Shown: positions 659 to 32,514 of the stretch, piece after piece | How the letters are laid out: each line of letters starts with the position of its first letter | Numbering within the stretch: position 1 is the first letter of the stretch | Source of the DNA: a candidate division WWE3 bacterium | GTDB lineage: Bacteria > Patescibacteriota > WWE3 > JAUXAW01 | DNA length: 34,818 nucleotides | Assembly (NCBI GenBank): GCA_030619715.1 | Contig: JAUXAW010000007.1 | Coordinates: 1 to 34,818, forward strand | Direction of reading: 5' to 3' | Notes under the pieces: model-generated | What the model saw: only the letters and a program-made list of their open reading frames with translations | The model's database searches: none | Told to the model about the DNA's origin: nothing | Program-made: the position numbers and the translations under genes

Positions 659-2713
659 ATGCTTCTCTCCGATCCTATTACAACCATCCCACTAGTTGGA
701 AAATCCTACGCCAACCGTTTGAAGAAACTCGATATTGAGACTATTGAGGATCTTCTCCACCACTATCCCTTCCGCTACGAAGACTTTTCTGTGAAGAAGA
801 AGCTCAACGAGCTGATTGCCGGCGAAACAGTAACGGTGACCGCCACCGTCTTGGAAATCAAAAACATCTACACCCGCGGGGGCAAGCGACTAACTTTCGC
901 CACCGTTGCCGATGAAACTGGTCAACTTGAGGTTGTCTGGTTCAACCAACCGTATATAACAAATACTGTCAAGAAGAACGATTCAATTAATCTTTCTGGG
1001 CGCTTAGGCGAGTTTAGCAAGAAACCAACGTTCGTTAGCCCGGAATATGAAAAATTGGGGGCGTCTTCCACCATCCATACCGGCAGGTTGGTACCAGTTT
1101 ACCCCGAAACCCGCGGCGTGACCTCCAAATGGCTCCGCTCCCGCATCAACGCAGCCATTCAGCCATTTAACCATTTAGCCATTGACGAAATTGAATTCCT
1201 ACCTAACGAAATCCGAGAGCAACAGGATTTGATTGACCTTAAATCCGCCACCAACCAGATCCATTTCCCCGAAGACATGGATCAAGTTGAGGAGGCACGA
1301 AAACGGCTCGGTTTTGACGAGTTTTTCCTGATGCAGCTTCAGGCGCTCAAGCGTCGTCAAGAATGGCAGAAACGCCCGCTTGCGCGGAAGTTCAAAGTTC
1401 AAAGTTCAAAATTCAAAATTGACGCATTCGTAAATTCACTACCCTTTGAGTTGACTGACGCCCAGAAGAGAGCGGTTGATGAGATCCTAAAGGATTTAGA
1501 AAAAGACGTTCCGATGAATAGGTTATTGGAAGGCGACGTCGGAAGTGGGAAGACCGTCGTTGCCGCCGTTGCCATTTACGCCGCTCACCTGAACGGGTTG
1601 CAGTCGGCAATAATGGCGCCGACCGAAATTTTGGCCGAACAGCATTTTCGTACTATCTCCGAGTTACTCAAACCACTCGGAGTTAGTGTGGCTTTAAGGA
1701 CCGGAGCAAGAAAATCCTCAATCCTCAATCCTCAATTCTCAATTCTTATTGGCACTCACGCCCTTCTCTTCGATTCCGTCGAATTCAAAAACCTCGGTCT
1801 CGTCATCATCGACGAGCAACATCGGTTTGGAGTAGAGCAGAGAGCAAAACTTCTCAAGAAAACTGGGGACGATACCGTCCCACACCTTTTAACCATGACT
1901 GCAACCCCAATCCCAAGAAGTCTGGCCCTAACCGCTTACGGTGATCTTGACATTTCCGTCCTTGACGAAATGCCGCCGGGACGAAAAGAAGTCATTACCT
2001 GGGTCGTTCCCAATCACAAACGCCAGGCGGCGTATAATTGGATTAGGGAACAGATAAAGGACGACGCTCAAGCCTTCGTCATCTGTCCTCTGATTGAAGA
2101 GTCTGAAGCGGAAACGATGCAAACGGTCAAAGCGGCAACGGTGGAATTTGAAAGACTGTCCAAAAAAGTTTTTCCCGACCTGAAGTTGGCCCTTTTGCAC
2201 GGCCGGATAAAATCAAGAGAGAAAAATGAAATCTTAGCCGATTTCAAAAACGGTAAGTATGATATTCTGGTTTCGACCCAAGTGGTTGAGGTGGGAATTG
2301 ATGTCCCGACGGCAACCTTAATGATTATCGAGGGCGGCGACCGCTTTGGACTCGCGTCTTTGCACCAACTGCGGGGCCGGGTCGGCCGTTCAACTCGTCA
2401 GTCCTACTGTCTTCTTTTCACTGAGTCAAGAAGCCGAAAAGCTCACAACCGTCTCAAAGCAATGGAAGAACTCAACGACGGCTTCAAGCTGGCCGAGATC
2501 GACTTAAAAATGAGGGGACCGGGGGAGATTTACGGCGTCAAACAACACGGGTTGATGCGTCTTAAGATCGCCTCGCTTTCCGATGTCAAACTAATCGAGA
2601 CAACAAGAAACGAAGCGAAGGGGTTGTTGGAGGAGGATCCGAACTTAAAGCATCATCTAGCTTTGAAAGAAAAACTAACAAGAATGTCAGGGGAGTTGGT
2701 AGAACCAAATTAA
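659..2713 (+). CDS. recG: ATP-dependent DNA helicase RecG
   Basis: [11 protein letters not shown] Walker [27 protein letters not shown] motifs. Confidence 0.97.
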
Positions 2714-3264
2714 TGAGAATAACCTCAGGATTAGTAAAAGGTTACAAATTAAAAATCCCTCCCGGTGATCGAGTCAAGCCTGCACAGTCTATTGTCCGCC
2801 AGGCCATCTTTAACATCATTGGAGAGTTCGTTAAAGAAGCAAGAGTTCTTGACCTCTTCGCCGGCAGTGGGTCATTGGGAATTGAAGCTCTAAGTAGAGG
2901 GGCCGCCTGGTGCGATTTCGTGGACAAAGATAAAAAATGCGCCGAAGTGATCAAAGAGAATCTCGTCAACACTCGCTTCGAAGACAAGGCCAAAGTTTAC
3001 ACCATGAAAGCCAAAACCTTTATACAGAGGCCTGACAAGGGCGAAGCCCTTGATAAGGTTGATTTTATCTTCCTTTCGCCGCCGTATGCCCAAGGAGTAG
3101 ATTTGGAACTGCTCAAAAAATTAGCCAAAATCTCAAAGAGTAGGGGACTAGTCATCTTCGAGCACGCCAAAGAAACCGAGGTTCCCGCCGAAATCGACAG
3201 CCTAAAACTCCTCGACCAGCGGACGTATGGTGCTGCGACGGTATCTTTCTTGCAAAAAGGTTGA
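2713..3264 (+). CDS. rsmD: 16S rRNA (guanine(966)-N(2))-methyltransferase RsmD
   Basis: [46 protein letters not shown]; overlaps recG stop by 1 nt. Confidence 0.93.
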   Translation: MRITSGLVKGYKLKIPPGDRVKPAQSIVRQAIFNIIGEFVKEARVLDLFAGSGSLGIEALSRGAAWCDFVDKDKKCAEVIKENLVNTRFEDKAKVYTMKAKTFIQRPDKGEALDKVDFIFLSPPYAQGVDLELLKKLAKISKSRGLVIFEHAKETEVPAEIDSLKLLDQRTYGAATVSFLQKG

Positions 3265-3373
3265 AAGTTTTCAAATGTTTATAAAGTTTTAACAAAATCG
3301 CCCTTTTGACTCACGATCGTGAGTTAAACGGCACTTTTTCGCGAAAGTTCTGAATGTTTTGAAACTTTTGAGG
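3262..3373. repeat. ~110-bp imperfect palindrome, copy A (core ACTCACGATCGTGAGT at 3309-3324)
   Basis: Arms of TTTTGAAA/AAAGTTTT-type sequence around the core; related copies at 24030-24145 and 31310-31428. Confidence 0.8.
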
Positions 3374-3388
3374 AAGGACCATCTCCAC

Positions 3389-3417
3389 TTGACAAACGGC
3401 CTCTAATGTGGTATACT
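3389..3417 (+). promoter_or_regulatory. Sigma70-type promoter, cassette 1
   Basis: TTGACA-17 nt-TATACT; block TTGACAAACGGCCTCTAATGTGGTATACT recurs at 4094 with one change. Confidence 0.85.
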
Positions 3418-3449
3418 GCCACTATCAAGAGCTCTTCGGCTCTTTGAAA

Positions 3450-3486
3450 GCTTTCCGCCGGTCTTCCGCTGGAAAGCATTTTTTCC
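3450..3486 (+). terminator. Intrinsic-terminator-like hairpin in the leader (attenuator candidate)
   Basis: GCTTTCC-gc-CGG-tctt-CCG-ct-GGAAAGC-ATTTTTT between promoter and SD. Confidence 0.65.
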
Positions 3487-3843
3487 ATGGCTATTATTCA
3501 AAACCAAAATTCAAAAGCGCAGAGAAAAAAGGAGGATCAGCGATGCGAGGGAGGTTTTTCAAGGGGAAATTCTTCAACAAGATCGCCGGGGGAACGGGTA
3601 ACGGGTGCGGATCTCGAGCACCTTCCCGAAAACAGCTCTATCTATTTCCAAGTGCAAGACTGCGCAGCAGTCTGCCAGCCACACCTCGTAGAGGTCATCG
3701 TCAAGAGTGTGGTGAGAATAGACGGGGTTCCGGAGGGGCTTCGGATCGAAGGGATTATTGATAGAATGGGCCCCACCACCAAGGTGGTGATGGTGTATTG
3801 CTCAGTAACCCAGTCCGGGTGGATAACCTGGGATCAACAGTAG
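3487..3843 (+). CDS. Hypothetical protein, cassette 1 ORF (probable start ATG 3543 in another frame; see finding on the G5 run)
   Basis: Globular-looking C-terminal half HLVEVIVKSVVRIDGVPEGLRIEGIIDRMGPTTKVVMVYCSVTQSGWITW; strong SD AAGGAGG precedes ATG 3543 (+1 frame offset). Confidence 0.5.
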   Translation: MAIIQNQNSKAQRKKEDQRCEGGFSRGNSSTRSPGERVTGADLEHLPENSSIYFQVQDCAAVCQPHLVEVIVKSVVRIDGVPEGLRIEGIIDRMGPTTKVVMVYCSVTQSGWITWDQQ

Positions 3844-3850
3844 TCCCGAT

Positions 3851-3910
3851 GCCCTGGTGACAGCGCGCAAGCAACATCAAGCGCACTCGTCATCAGGGCG
3901 TTCTTCTTTA
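3851..3910 (+). terminator. Long hairpin terminator, copy 1
   Basis: GCCCTGGTGACAGCGCGCAAGCAACATCAAGCGCACTCGTCATCAGGGC then GTTCTTCTTT; 49 nt identical to 4793-4841. Confidence 0.85.
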
Positions 3911-3941
3911 CCAAAAATTCCCACAGGTGCGGGATAAAATG

Positions 3942-3997
3942 GTAACAGGTAAACCTGTCACTACGATTTGAGATGTAGTGACACACTTGTGTGTTAC
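3942..3997. repeat. Inverted pair of 23-nt GTAG-type REP hairpins (3942-3964 and 3975-3997)
   Basis: GTAACAGGTAAACCTGTCACTAC + 10 nt + GTAGTGACACACTTGTGTGTTAC. Confidence 0.8.
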
Positions 3998-4065
3998 CCC
4001 CAACCGAAAAGTGATGTTATTTCCGAACGGCCGTAAGCGAATTACATCACTTCCATAAATAGTAC

Positions 4066-4081
4066 AGCGGTACGTACCGCT
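4066..4081. other. Perfect 16-bp palindrome AGCGGTACGTACCGCT
   Basis: Read directly; 12 nt upstream of the cassette 2 -35 box. Confidence 0.8.
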
Positions 4082-4093
4082 AAACTCTTACAC

Positions 4094-4122
4094 TTGACAA
4101 ACGGCCCCTAATGTGGTATACT
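4094..4122 (+). promoter_or_regulatory. Cassette 2 promoter P1
   Basis: TTGACA-17-TATACT, near-identical to cassette 1. Confidence 0.85.
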
Positions 4123-4161
4123 TAAAGGGTAGATGTAGTAGCGAACTTTAGTTCACCCAAT

Positions 4162-4190
4162 TTGACAAAGGGGCAAAAGTATGTTATAAT
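4162..4190 (+). promoter_or_regulatory. Cassette 2 promoter P2 (consensus)
   Basis: TTGACA-17-TATAAT. Confidence 0.85.
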
Positions 4191-4323
4191 CAAGGTGTAA
4201 GACGATGGAGAGAGGCCCGAAGGGGCTTTTGGTAGAAGGACACGAGGTACTCGTTTCTTTCCATCAGGAGCCCATCGGCTCTTTGAAATCAAAAAAGCCA
4301 TTAAGAGCATAAAATAGAAAGGG

Positions 4324-4854
4324 GTGGAAAACGTGGACAAATACACAAGGTACGCACTATCCACGCACGAGGCCGGCCACTTCGTGATCTGCAAGTGGCT
4401 CGGTGACGAGCCATCACTAGTGATAATAGACACAGAAGAGGGATGGTTCAGAACGCGGCACGATATTCCGCGAGGAGAGAAAGACGCAAACCGCCGACAT
4501 CTAATCATAAGTGCTGCCGCTGGATTTGCGGCTAAGCAGGTCGTATTTGGCAGTTATGAGGAGGCGGAGAGCGCCGAAGACGTACAACACATTACGGCAT
4601 TAGGAGGAACAGTTCCCGACGCGGTTGCGTCAGTTGTGGAACTGCTCGTACCCCTCAAATATGTGGTAATGTCCGTCGCGGAAGCCATCGACGCCGCGGC
4701 AGATCAAGGTCGCAAGCAAATTAGCGCCGAGGAGCTCCAGATTCACTATGAACTCGGTCTGAATATTGCATGCCACGCGGCGATCAACCAACGCCCTGGT
4801 GACAGCGCGCAAGCAACATCAAGCGCACTCGTCATCAGGGCGGTTTCTTTTTGA
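4324..4854 (+). CDS. Standalone FtsH/M41-like zinc metallopeptidase domain protein (no AAA+ domain)
   Basis: ALSTHEAGHFVICKWLG (HExxH) and AAAGFAAKQVVFGSYEEAESAEDVQHI, resembling M41 GGRAAEE..FG....ND; start may be GTG 4333 after AAAGGGG. Confidence 0.65.
   Translation: MENVDKYTRYALSTHEAGHFVICKWLGDEPSLVIIDTEEGWFRTRHDIPRGEKDANRRHLIISAAAGFAAKQVVFGSYEEAESAEDVQHITALGGTVPDAVASVVELLVPLKYVVMSVAEAIDAAADQGRKQISAEELQIHYELGLNIACHAAINQRPGDSAQATSSALVIRAVSF
4793..4853 (+). terminator. Long hairpin terminator, copy 2, overlapping the 3' end of the M41-like ORF
   Basis: 49 nt identical to 3851-3899, followed by GGTTTCTTTTT. Confidence 0.85.
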
Positions 4855-5150: not shown

Positions 5151-5579
5151 ATGAAGACAAAATTGGATCCTCGACACGAAGCAAGAAGGGTAGCTCTAAG
5201 TGTGCTATTTGGTTGGTCGTTTCTTTCCAAAGATATTGACCAATTGACTGAGCTTGCCAAAGAGAGTTTGGGTGACAAGGAGTTCGACAAGAATTTGGCC
5301 GAGTCGCTAATTAGCGGTGTCGTCACAAACTTGGAGACAATCGACCAAATTATCAAGGCGACCGCCACCGAATGGCCACTCGAACAAATTGCCCGTGCCG
5401 ACCTTATCTGCCTGCGCATCGCCGTCTTTGAACTTTACATTGCCCAAAGTGTTCCCCACAAAGTGGCGATCGATGAGTGCATCGAGCTGGCCAAAGAGTT
5501 CGGCTCAGAGCAGTCGGGAAAATTTGTTAATGGGGTTTTGGGGACGATTGTGAAAACGCTGTTGCCGGAGAAAGCATGA
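5151..5579 (+). CDS. nusB: Transcription antitermination factor NusB
   Basis: RHEARRVALSVLFGW...AVFELYIAQSVPHKVAIDECIELAKEFGSEQSGKFVNGVLG. Confidence 0.9.
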   Translation: MKTKLDPRHEARRVALSVLFGWSFLSKDIDQLTELAKESLGDKEFDKNLAESLISGVVTNLETIDQIIKATATEWPLEQIARADLICLRIAVFELYIAQSVPHKVAIDECIELAKEFGSEQSGKFVNGVLGTIVKTLLPEKA

Positions 5580-6889: not shown

Positions 6890-7159
6890 ATGAAGGATCT
6901 CTTAGAATATTTAGTTACATCTATCGTTGAACAACCAGAAGCGGTTAAAGTTCAAGCGACCGAAACCCCCGAAGGTTTTGTCAACCTCCAAATTACCGTC
7001 GCTCCGGAGGATATGGGAATGGTAATTGGGAAAGGGGGAAGGATAATTAGGGCGCTGAGGAACCTTGTCAGGGTTAAAGCAATTAAAGAGAATAAGAGGG
7101 TGAACGTAGAATTGACAGAAAGCCAAAATTTTCAAATCCCAAATTCCAAATCCCAATGA
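6890..7159 (+). CDS. khpA: KH-domain RNA-binding protein KhpA (YlqC family)
   Basis: MKDLLEYLVTSIVEQPEAV...MGMVIGKGGRIIRALRNLVRV; C-terminal SQNFQIPNSKSQ is repeat-derived. Confidence 0.9.
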   Translation: MKDLLEYLVTSIVEQPEAVKVQATETPEGFVNLQITVAPEDMGMVIGKGGRIIRALRNLVRVKAIKENKRVNVELTESQNFQIPNSKSQ

Positions 7160-7277
7160 AGCTCCAAATTCCAATTCTCAAACGTTTGACAATTCGAGCG
7201 TTAGCGAGAATTGAGAGCGAAGCGCCAAATTGAGTCATTGAGATTTCATTGAAAATTGGAGCTTGAAAATTGAAAAT
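7121..7277. repeat. Intergenic 7-mer-based imperfect palindrome, copy 2, with an internal insert
   Basis: Same arms as 6778-6888; extra GAGCGTTAGCGAGAATTGAGAGCGAAGCGCC in the middle. Confidence 0.75.
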
Positions 7278-14672: not shown

Positions 14673-14705
14673 TTCCAGAGAGTTTCAGAGCGAGGCTCTG
14701 AAAGT
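14669..14705 (+). repeat. RAYT-flanking REP hairpin, copy 1
   Basis: GTAGTTCCAGAGAGTTTCAGAGCGAGGCTCTGAAAGT. Confidence 0.85.
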
Positions 14706-15458
14706 CGGCTTACCACGCTCAAAACTGTCAAGCAATTCACGGCGCAGGCGCTTCTTTTCCTCCTCAAGGTCTTTAAACCACCCAAAGTCATCGTCAATGC
14801 TCACGCCCTCCAACACACGATCACCGAGAGCGGGAAAATCTGCCAACACAAAATCCAAGTAGTCATCTACATCTTTAAAACAACTGAGAACCGTTTTTGT
14901 GTTGAAGATGGTGTCTTTACGCTTCCCTAGATACACGGGTAGGGAAGACCATTTCCAAAGGGTTAAATTCTTTCGGGTAACTAAACCAGCAGCAAGAGGG
15001 TTTACGTGTATGTAGCGATTAAGACACAGAAACTGCCCCTCATTCTCAACTCGAACAGATTTAAAGGGACCTTGAAAGAGCCGCCCCGATCGCTCCAAGC
15101 GAATATTGAAGTAATTTGTATAGCTGGTTCCAATCCGGTGCATAAAAGTAGTGATCCCATCCTCCGCCAATTGTTTCACCTGAAGATGAAAGTGGTTCGG
15201 TAGCAAACAAAGACTAAGAATCTCAACTGGAGGATGTTCCCATTTATACATCTCTAGTTTCAGAGCGAGGCTCTGTAAGTCGTTGTTGTTACGCTTTCTA
15301 ATCCGCAGGTGGCTGTAGGGGTAATCGTACTTCAAATAATGGTTGAGTACAGAGAAAAAACGGGAATAATACGAATCGTCCAAGAAGATGTTTCTCTTGT
15401 CAACACCACGATTATACAAATGATAAATCTCGTCAGACGCAAGAATGTCTCTCCGCAT
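14685..15458 (-). mobile_element. REP-associated tyrosine transposase (Y1/TnpA_REP, RAYT family)
   Basis: YHLYNRGVDKRNIFLDDSYYSRF..., LCLLPNHFHLQVKQ (HUH), YTNYFNIRLERSGRLFQGPFKS, RYIHVNPLAAGLV. Confidence 0.92.
15257..15282 (+). repeat. RAYT REP hairpin, internal copy inside the transposase CDS
   Basis: GTTTCAGAGCGAGGCTCTGTAAGTCG. Confidence 0.85.
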
Positions 15459-24029: not shown

Positions 24030-24145
24030 CCTCGAAAATTTATAAACTTTTAAAACATTCAAAACTTTTGAAAAAGAGGGGTGCTTCTCTCACGATCGTG
24101 AATTAAAAGCGTGATTTTCTTAAAACTTTCAAGGGTTTTGAATTG
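24030..24145. repeat. ~110-bp imperfect palindrome, copy B (core TCACGATCGTGA at 24090-24101)
   Basis: Arms AAACTTTTAAAACATTCAAAACTTTTG...AAAACTTTCAAGGGTTTTGAA. Confidence 0.8.
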
Positions 24146-31309: not shown

Positions 31310-31428
31310 TTAAAAGCTTCGAAACTTTGAAAAGTTTTAAGAAAACCGCGTTTTTGATTCACGATCGTAAAATAAAACGGTAGTTTTTGTGAAAATTTTG
31401 AATGTTTTGAAAGTTTCGAAAAAACCCC
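31310..31428. repeat. ~110-bp imperfect palindrome, copy C (core TTCACGATCGTAA near 31359-31370)
   Basis: CTTCGAAACTTTGAAAAGTTTTAAG...GAAAATTTTGAATGTTTTGAAAGTTTCGAAAA. Confidence 0.8.
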
Positions 31429-31434
31429 ACCCTT

Positions 31435-32382
31435 CTAATCTCCTTTCCGATGATATTTCTTGTGGGCTTCTTTGAGGCGGGGATTGGTAACGTGGGTGTA
31501 GATTTGGGTGGTGGAGATACTTTTGTGACCGAGCATCTCTTGGACCGAACGGATATCCGCTCCTGAGCGCAGAAGGTCGGTCGCGAACGAGTGCCTTAGA
31601 ACATGCGGGCTGGCATCAACCGAAATTCCCGATTTCTTGACATACTTCTTCATTAACCGCTGCACACTACGGGCACCGAGCCGTAAACTTTCACCATCGG
31701 TGTCCTGCGTCGGGTCGTCGGGCTTGGGCCCCCGGAGTCGAACAAAGAGGGGCTTGAAACCGTCATCGCGCTTTTTTAAGTAGCGAGACAACACCATTGC
31801 CGCTTCATCATCCAAAAAAACCAAGCGGGTCTTACGCCCTTTGCCAAGCACACTAAACTCCCGGGTGCGAAAATTGATTTGGTCGCGGTTGAGCCCAACC
31901 AGCTCCGAAACCCGCAAGCCGGTGCTAAACAAAACTTCAAGGATGGCTCGATCCCGTAGTCCAGTCAGCGTCCTGGTCTCACAGGCGGAAAAAAGCTGGC
32001 GCAGCTGTTTTTCTTCTAAGAATTTGAGCGAACGCCCCTCGGCCTTGCCAAGGTCAATCCGAGTGCTAGCGATGACCTCCAGTCCCTGCTTTTCAAGGAA
32101 ACTAACGAAGGAACGCAAAGCCACAATATGATAGCGCTGGGTTGTTTTCTTGAGTGGCTTTTTCGTCTTCTTGGAAACCTTGCGGTTGAGAAACTTCCGG
32201 TACTTGCGAATCAGCTCTGGTGTCAGATCCTTAAGTTTGACCGCGCGGCCAAGCGCTTCTTTCGCCCAGGCGGCAAAGTGATTAAGATAATAATCGTACA
32301 TCTTGACCGTTCTCGGGGAGAGGTTTTGGTCAAGTTCACAATATTCGAGGAAGTCTAAGATGTGATTACTAAATGTTTTCAT
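31435..32382 (-). CDS. xerC: Tyrosine recombinase XerC/XerD-like (ORF open from 32499)
   Basis: SAM-like N domain; STGLRVSELVGL, HVLRHSFATDLLRSGADIRSVQEMLGHKSISTTQIYTHV. Confidence 0.92.
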   Translation of the reverse strand: MKTFSNHILDFLEYCELDQNLSPRTVKMYDYYLNHFAAWAKEALGRAVKLKDLTPELIRKYRKFLNRKVSKKTKKPLKKTTQRYHIVALRSFVSFLEKQGLEVIASTRIDLGKAEGRSLKFLEEKQLRQLFSACETRTLTGLRDRAILEVLFSTGLRVSELVGLNRDQINFRTREFSVLGKGRKTRLVFLDDEAAMVLSRYLKKRDDGFKPLFVRLRGPKPDDPTQDTDGESLRLGARSVQRLMKKYVKKSGISVDASPHVLRHSFATDLLRSGADIRSVQEMLGHKSISTTQIYTHVTNPRLKEAHKKYHRKGD

Positions 32383-32514
32383 AATTTGGGGTGGGGAAGT
32401 GTGTTCAATTTTGGCACCCAACTTCCACAATCGCTTTGATACAACAGTATCACACTCCGTCTGTCTTTGCGATCGCAATTGAATTAAGAGATCCCACACA
32501 CCTACCCTGATACA

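Follow-up and report, generated by a model that had tools for sequence, protein, structure and literature searches.

In the window analyzed here (the whole 34,818-nt stretch of DNA from a candidate division WWE3 bacterium), two adjacent transcription units between the rsmD and rpmF genes (3386-4851) carry near-identical promoters and terminators around unrelated open reading frames (ORFs). We propose that the pair probably arose when promoter and terminator were recently duplicated in place and an interior was exchanged, in a clade that tends to express orphan genes singly, each driven by a strong promoter of one stereotyped kind. Recent cassette duplication and interior replacement had both been listed as options in the first-pass annotation, and in combination they remain the best fit to promoters and terminators that are near-identical, loop included, around unrelated interiors, although a donor was found for neither interior. 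The pair is real, but it is a local duplication inside a wider pattern, and the data do not support a dedicated system of mobile cassettes. The small genome and the gene content probably make the organism a member of the Patescibacteria/CPR. Bacteria of this kind have tiny genomes crowded with orphan genes; a stereotyped promoter could show how new genes acquire a ready-made promoter and terminator and, as a searchable signal, could serve to list the truly expressed orphan genes and to link phages to uncultured hosts.

The three blocks described in the first-pass annotation as shared between the units were all recovered: a 32-nt promoter block (3386-3417 and 4091-4122) with 31 of 32 nt identical (97%), a 26-nt leader block (3424-3449 and 4263-4288) with 88% identity, and a terminator core (3851-3899 and 4793-4841) identical at 49 of 49 nt, loop included. 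The core is embedded in a 64-nt terminator family of 91% identity (3846-3909 and 4788-4851), and both copies fold at approximately -32.7 kcal/mol (z approximately -6 against shuffles). BLAST E-values were 8e-9 for the promoter, 0.008 for the leader, and 3e-21 for the terminator within a 70-kb local set consisting of the window and ten loci of the same genome. Local BLAST detected no DNA similarity between the two coding interiors, in agreement with the earlier description of them as unrelated. The search of the whole genome (a fragmented draft of 674 kb in 36 contigs) for further blocks gave a divided answer, i.e., exact blocks are absent elsewhere and diverged versions are present. Even when 3 mismatches are allowed, the 29-nt promoter block occurs only at the two window sites, and the 49-nt terminator only as its two window copies. 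The exact promoter and leader patterns had zero matches in 85,462 genomes and in IMG/VR, the terminator pattern had none in IMG/VR, and the DNA of the region had none among plasmids and phages. Rfam gave zero matches in the window; in the loci of the same genome, units included, it gave nothing beyond tRNAs, a weak T-box, and matches at chance level. The T-box-like leader (Rfam RF00230, E 7e-8, under the gathering score) is located just upstream of a tRNA gene on contig C13 (L057 1880-2092).

Spacer and loop bases that are unneeded for function are near-identical as well, which counts for duplication. A common regulator or strong selection might instead keep promoter and terminator alike with no duplication involved; the promoter spacer is conserved across the class and in a phage, so that part of the identity between the promoters is constraint. 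We regard this reading as very unlikely, however, in that the other paralogues of this promoter in the genome have diverged at many positions, compared with a single difference in 32 between units 1 and 2, and the 49-nt terminator, unique in the genome, is identical even in its loop and bulges. Least probable of all is an assembly artefact in which short repeats led two strain variants of one locus to be placed one after the other. In its favour, the repeats of 32 and 59 nt match assembly k-mers in length and the genome is a fragmented draft of many contigs; against it, the internal layouts of the two units are not the same, and a single 35-kb contig with normal flanks contains both.

Unit 1 begins with a promoter of a conserved-spacer type (TTGACA-17-TATACT, 3389-3417, plus strand as for all unit features below), followed by the leader element, a hairpin (AAGAGC..GCTCTT) located where the transcript is predicted to begin (3424-3449), and by an intrinsic-terminator-like hairpin with T6 within the leader (3450-3485), recognized from its sequence and from the fold of 3418-3500 (z -4.4). 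This second hairpin is possibly an attenuator or the end of a short RNA. A boxA/Nus antitermination reading of the leader, based on GGCTCTTTGAAA beside nusB, was rejected: the 16S leader lacks GGCTCTTTGAAA, and the sole match in the rRNA operon (GCTCTTTAACA, after tRNA-Ala) contains 2 mismatches, such matches being expected by chance. The ORF of unit 1 (3487-3843) is an orphan with an uncertain start. It had been listed as a hypothetical protein; a coding signal is present in 3601-3840 and absent before approximately 3600, and the sole good Shine-Dalgarno sequence (3530) and its ATG (3543) are in a different frame from the ORF. The reading frame may be decayed, frameshifted, or starting elsewhere. 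It matched zero Pfam, NCBIfam, or PHROG families (one PHROG match has an E-value of 0.19), and even its best matches in other genomes are weak; the top one (9e-4) is broken by a stop. The unit ends with the terminator at 3846-3909 (core 3851-3899). A detail missed earlier is that approximately 134 nt separating the promoter of unit 2 from its leader are lacking in unit 1.

Unit 2 carries a conserved-spacer promoter P1 (4094-4122), a REP-like hairpin GTAGTAGCGAACTTTAGTTCACC (4135-4157), and a second promoter P2 (4162-4190), also missed earlier, which matches the sigma-70 consensus at 12 of 12 positions with a 17-nt spacer. The hairpin stretch 4133-4154 has 22 bases that are identical in other genomes of the phylum, in two of which (L135, L136) the stretch itself forms inverted GTAG-headed BIME-like pairs. 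Next comes a structured leader (4204-4290) predicted to fold as a rod (z -4.6), the 26-nt 3' part of which is common to unit 1; a competing two-hairpin pairing is also possible. The ORF (4324-4854) encodes a single-domain protein with the HEAGH motif and no AAA domain. Its earlier designation as an M41-like peptidase stands as far as HEAGH and FtsH-like similarity are concerned (FtsH-like protein of the phylum member G058, 29% identity to its peptidase domain across 91 aa, BLASTP 3e-7), but a match to the M41 family profile is absent and the frame has no stop before the terminator. The protein matched 0 Pfam and 0 NCBIfam families and gave zero matches in phage records, plasmid records, and IMG/VR; a single-sequence structure model (pLDDT 36) was unusable. 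Because the frame lacks a stop ahead of the terminator (4788-4851, core 4793-4841), its last 20 codons are the terminator hairpin itself, and the coding signal runs to approximately 4788 (coding score of the tail -0.19 vs +0.18 for the body). In 384 genomes of the phylum, no convincing relative was found for the unit 1 ORF or the M41-like ORF.

The diverged versions found elsewhere in the genome belong to a 5' module composed of P1, a short GTAG-headed REP hairpin, and the consensus sigma-70 promoter P2, with the two -35 elements approximately 68 nt apart. There are four copies: the 5' region of unit 2, C4:29929-30244, C11:8191-8297 (minus strand), and C4:13018-13125. The copy at C4:29929-30244 is 71% similar to window 3972-4296 (E 1e-39) and covers the stretch absent from unit 1. 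Leave-one-out profiles, in which three modules find the fourth, gave E-values of 4e-19, 7e-17, 2e-16, and 1e-12, and a profile search revealed no fifth full module in the surveyed part of the genome or in 47 genomes of the class. The leader of the C4:29929-30244 paralogue folds as a rod (z -3.8), and that of C4:13018-13125 contains a terminator-like hairpin and T tract ahead of its ORF, as in unit 1; regulation of the leaders by attenuation would be in keeping with these structures. Since unit 1 keeps P1 and the end of the leader without the middle, it is most simply a shortened copy, and the diverged paralogues of the module suggest that unit 2 retains the older, longer form.

The modules precede unrelated ORFs, i.e., the M41-like protein, an 87-aa cysteine-containing orphan, a 447-aa coiled-coil protein, and small ORFs followed by a cold-shock protein. 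Upstream of three of them lie a GTAG palindrome and one of 44 nt, and their similarity starts at the GTAG-headed palindrome. In the window, an inverted, BIME-like pair of GTAG-headed palindromes (GGTAACAGGTAAACCTGTCACTAC / GTAGTGACACACTTGTGTGTTACC) is located at 3941-3998, and single copies of this palindrome occur at C4:29932, C11:8385 (minus), and C2:21239 (minus); the 44-nt dispersed palindrome (AAGTGATG...CATCACTT, 4009-4052) has 5 further places in the genome. The window also encodes a protein resembling the REP-associated tyrosine transposases (RAYT; 14685-15458, minus strand; PF01797; NF047646 at 2.7e-11, under the curated cut-off). These associations raise the question of whether a REP/RAYT-type transposase or a recombinase moves the module or whole cassettes as a mobile promoter or mobile cassette. 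We consider this doubtful at best. The fourth module has no GTAG palindrome upstream, the right boundary is not shared, and the RAYT-like gene, scoring under its cut-off, has its own, different repeats (TTTCAGAGC..GCTCTGAAA), unlike the GTAG elements at the units. The undescribed modular accessory system of the first-pass annotation, taken as dedicated machinery, was likewise not upheld: the terminator has two copies only, no recombinase is adjacent to the units, and the three modules outside the window share their 5' side only.

Other repeats were noted in the same survey. Copies of a CAGAGC..GCTCTG palindrome flank the RAYT-like gene and interrupt it in frame. An intergenic palindrome (AAAATCGCCCTTTTGACTCACGATCGTGAGTTAAACGGC) at 3284-3330 belongs to a dispersed repeat centred on CACGATCGTG, found also at 24044-24129 and 31318-31419 and on contigs C14, C22, and C4 (13 sites in 364 kb, densest on C14 with 8); its candidate roles are terminator, binding site, or REP. 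At C11:32711-33474 (L055 1712-2475), a 168-aa orphan ORF, transglutaminase-like by eye, is located between two copies of the 44-nt palindrome.

To the left of the twin units lies rsmD (2713-3264, plus; Pfam PF03602, 5e-48) and to the right rpmF, encoding L32 (4904-5077, plus; PF01783, 8e-19), and the order recG-rsmD on one side and rpmF-nusB-acpP-rnc on the other is a class-wide conserved neighbourhood (synteny in 30 class loci). The relatives compared include none from the same genus or family, and in the nearest of them the rsmD-rpmF gap is 162 nt and empty. The gap is at most 223 nt and empty in 20 of 40 class relatives (in one case measured as far as nusB). The other 20 gaps, one of them cut off by a contig end, are 389 nt or longer and all belong to one family (f4). 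Eighteen of these 20 enlarged gaps contain ORFs of at least 72 aa, mostly unrelated to each other and to the window ORFs, which makes the site a recurrent home for lineage-restricted small genes. Copies of a promoter and terminator around different ORFs were present in no gap compared other than that of the window, and neither window ORF is syntenic or vertically inherited in these relatives, the arrangement that would have spoken against the first-pass view. One other gap (L108, genome G270) spans 3 kb and has a 356-nt direct repeat (69% identity) and several orphan ORFs.

The promoter of the units is one instance of a type that can be written TTGAC-N6-YCTGTARTRTGGTATAAT, the P1 spacer being conserved (YCTGTARTRTGG). 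In a survey of 364 kb (approximately 54% of the genome), eight sites were found vs none in shuffles. Six of the 44 strong promoters with a 17-nt spacer in this DNA match 10-12 of the 12 spacer positions of YYTGTARTRTGK, and the remaining ones match at most 8. Near-perfect copies are present in G122 and G388 (family f7) and a weaker one in G386 (f156); the type recurs in at least three families of the class. Several copies have a single small orphan ORF downstream and then a terminator-like hairpin. In G122 (L174-L179), some of these promoters precede hairpin-rich, apparently non-coding, repeat-bearing DNA, and L174 contains a 235-nt direct repeat of 94% identity (5214-5448 / 6947-7181).

Outside the class, the exact pattern occurs in one of 2.9 million IMG/VR contigs, ten times (IMGVR_UViG_3300033145_001595, 103 kb). 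This contig, which encodes a DnaB-like helicase and a primase, contains at least 10 promoter-leader-small-ORF units with similar leaders and different ORFs (L182-L185, L192), and several of its promoter copies lie directly behind a terminator-like hairpin. These units repeat the layout of the twin units, which is thus also that of a phage early-gene-like array. A relaxed pattern gave mostly single matches near chance in IMG/VR, with an array in this contig only, and matches of the phage promoter to Staphylococcus phages were weak (E approximately 1). It is conceivable, if unlikely, that the twin units are themselves phage-derived, moron-like small genes left with a phage-type promoter and terminator at a host intergenic site: a viral contig with replication genes repeats this promoter before unrelated small ORFs, in several cases directly after a terminator-like hairpin as in the window. 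Against this origin, the M41-like protein is without a match in the phage, plasmid, or IMG/VR records, the unit 1 ORF has but the one PHROG match given above, and phage genes are absent beside the units. The promoter type is also found at bacterial loci of three families, so host and phage may just share a polymerase preference. A broader and rather speculative idea is that, in this class, the conserved-spacer promoter is a dedicated channel, recognized by an undescribed factor or through a particular contact with sigma, by which orphan genes that have just arrived or arisen are expressed strongly and independently; phages of these bacteria would drive their early genes with this signal, and the mobile form of the channel would be the dual-promoter/REP module.

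Under the preferred reading, local duplication with interior replacement, the two units would be monocistronic and express lineage-restricted proteins from the site between rsmD and rpmF. A resident unit may have possessed the four-copy 5' module together with an intrinsic terminator and a structured leader; the second promoter, leader end, and terminator would stem from a recent event, either local duplication or the copying of a short stretch; one interior would then have been replaced, a step postulated from the identical flanks only, and unit 1 would have lost the middle part between P1 and leader. The direction of duplication is ambiguous, the promoter context favouring unit 2 as the older and the stopless M41-like frame suggesting that the unit 2 terminator is the newcomer. 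In expression, sigma-70 polymerase would start at P1 in both units and additionally at P2 in unit 2, the leader of the RNA would fold, and the terminator-like hairpin of unit 1 may trim most transcripts to approximately 60 nt by attenuation. Read-through RNA would be translated and transcription ended by the shared hairpin. The predicted RNA end of unit 2 lies at or before the first stop codon, and much of its mRNA may consequently lack a stop and need ribosome rescue.

Compared with known systems, the M41-like protein resembles the FtsH M41 peptidase domain in HEAGH and in its local match, and differs in the missing AAA domain and Pfam M41 match and in being lineage-restricted. Extended -10 promoters of Bacillus and relatives have a TRTG motif in the -16 region; the conserved-spacer type likewise contains TRTGGTATAAT, but keeps six more upstream spacer bases (YCTGTA). 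Phage morons are single small genes that each come with a promoter and a terminator of their own. The twin units have the same composition and their promoter type is arrayed in the 103-kb phage contig, yet they occupy a chromosomal site in a conserved neighbourhood, with no phage genes beside them and no phage homologues found. Relative to an integron cassette (an attC-type site after each gene, plus an integron integrase), the 49-nt hairpin, present in 2 copies only, has a terminator-like T tract behind it, and the sole tyrosine recombinase seen, of the phage-integrase family (31435-32499, minus strand), lies 27 kb from the units. GTAG REPs and BIMEs consist of an unpaired GTAG head and a short palindrome and occur as inverted pairs (PMC3733652, PMC8266576); the GTAG-headed palindromes at 3941-3998 and 4135-4157, their inverted pairing, and a RAYT-like gene in the window are similar, whereas copy number is high in those systems and here a handful in 364 kb, one element sits between two promoters, and the resident RAYT-like gene is flanked by different repeats, where a cognate RAYT would have this REP at its ends. 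Putative mobile promoters (Matus-Garcia 2012, van Passel 2014) are described, in the passages of PMC8049555 and PMC9208149 that cite them, as similar upstream regions before non-homologous genes of one genome. The present genome also has similar upstream regions (n = 4) before non-homologous genes. Identity is 97% over 32 nt in the local pair and 71% between the two best-matching loci. In contrast to those promoters, the copied unit here comprises two promoters with a REP-like hairpin between them, a structured leader is common to two copies, and the terminator has been copied in one adjacent pair.
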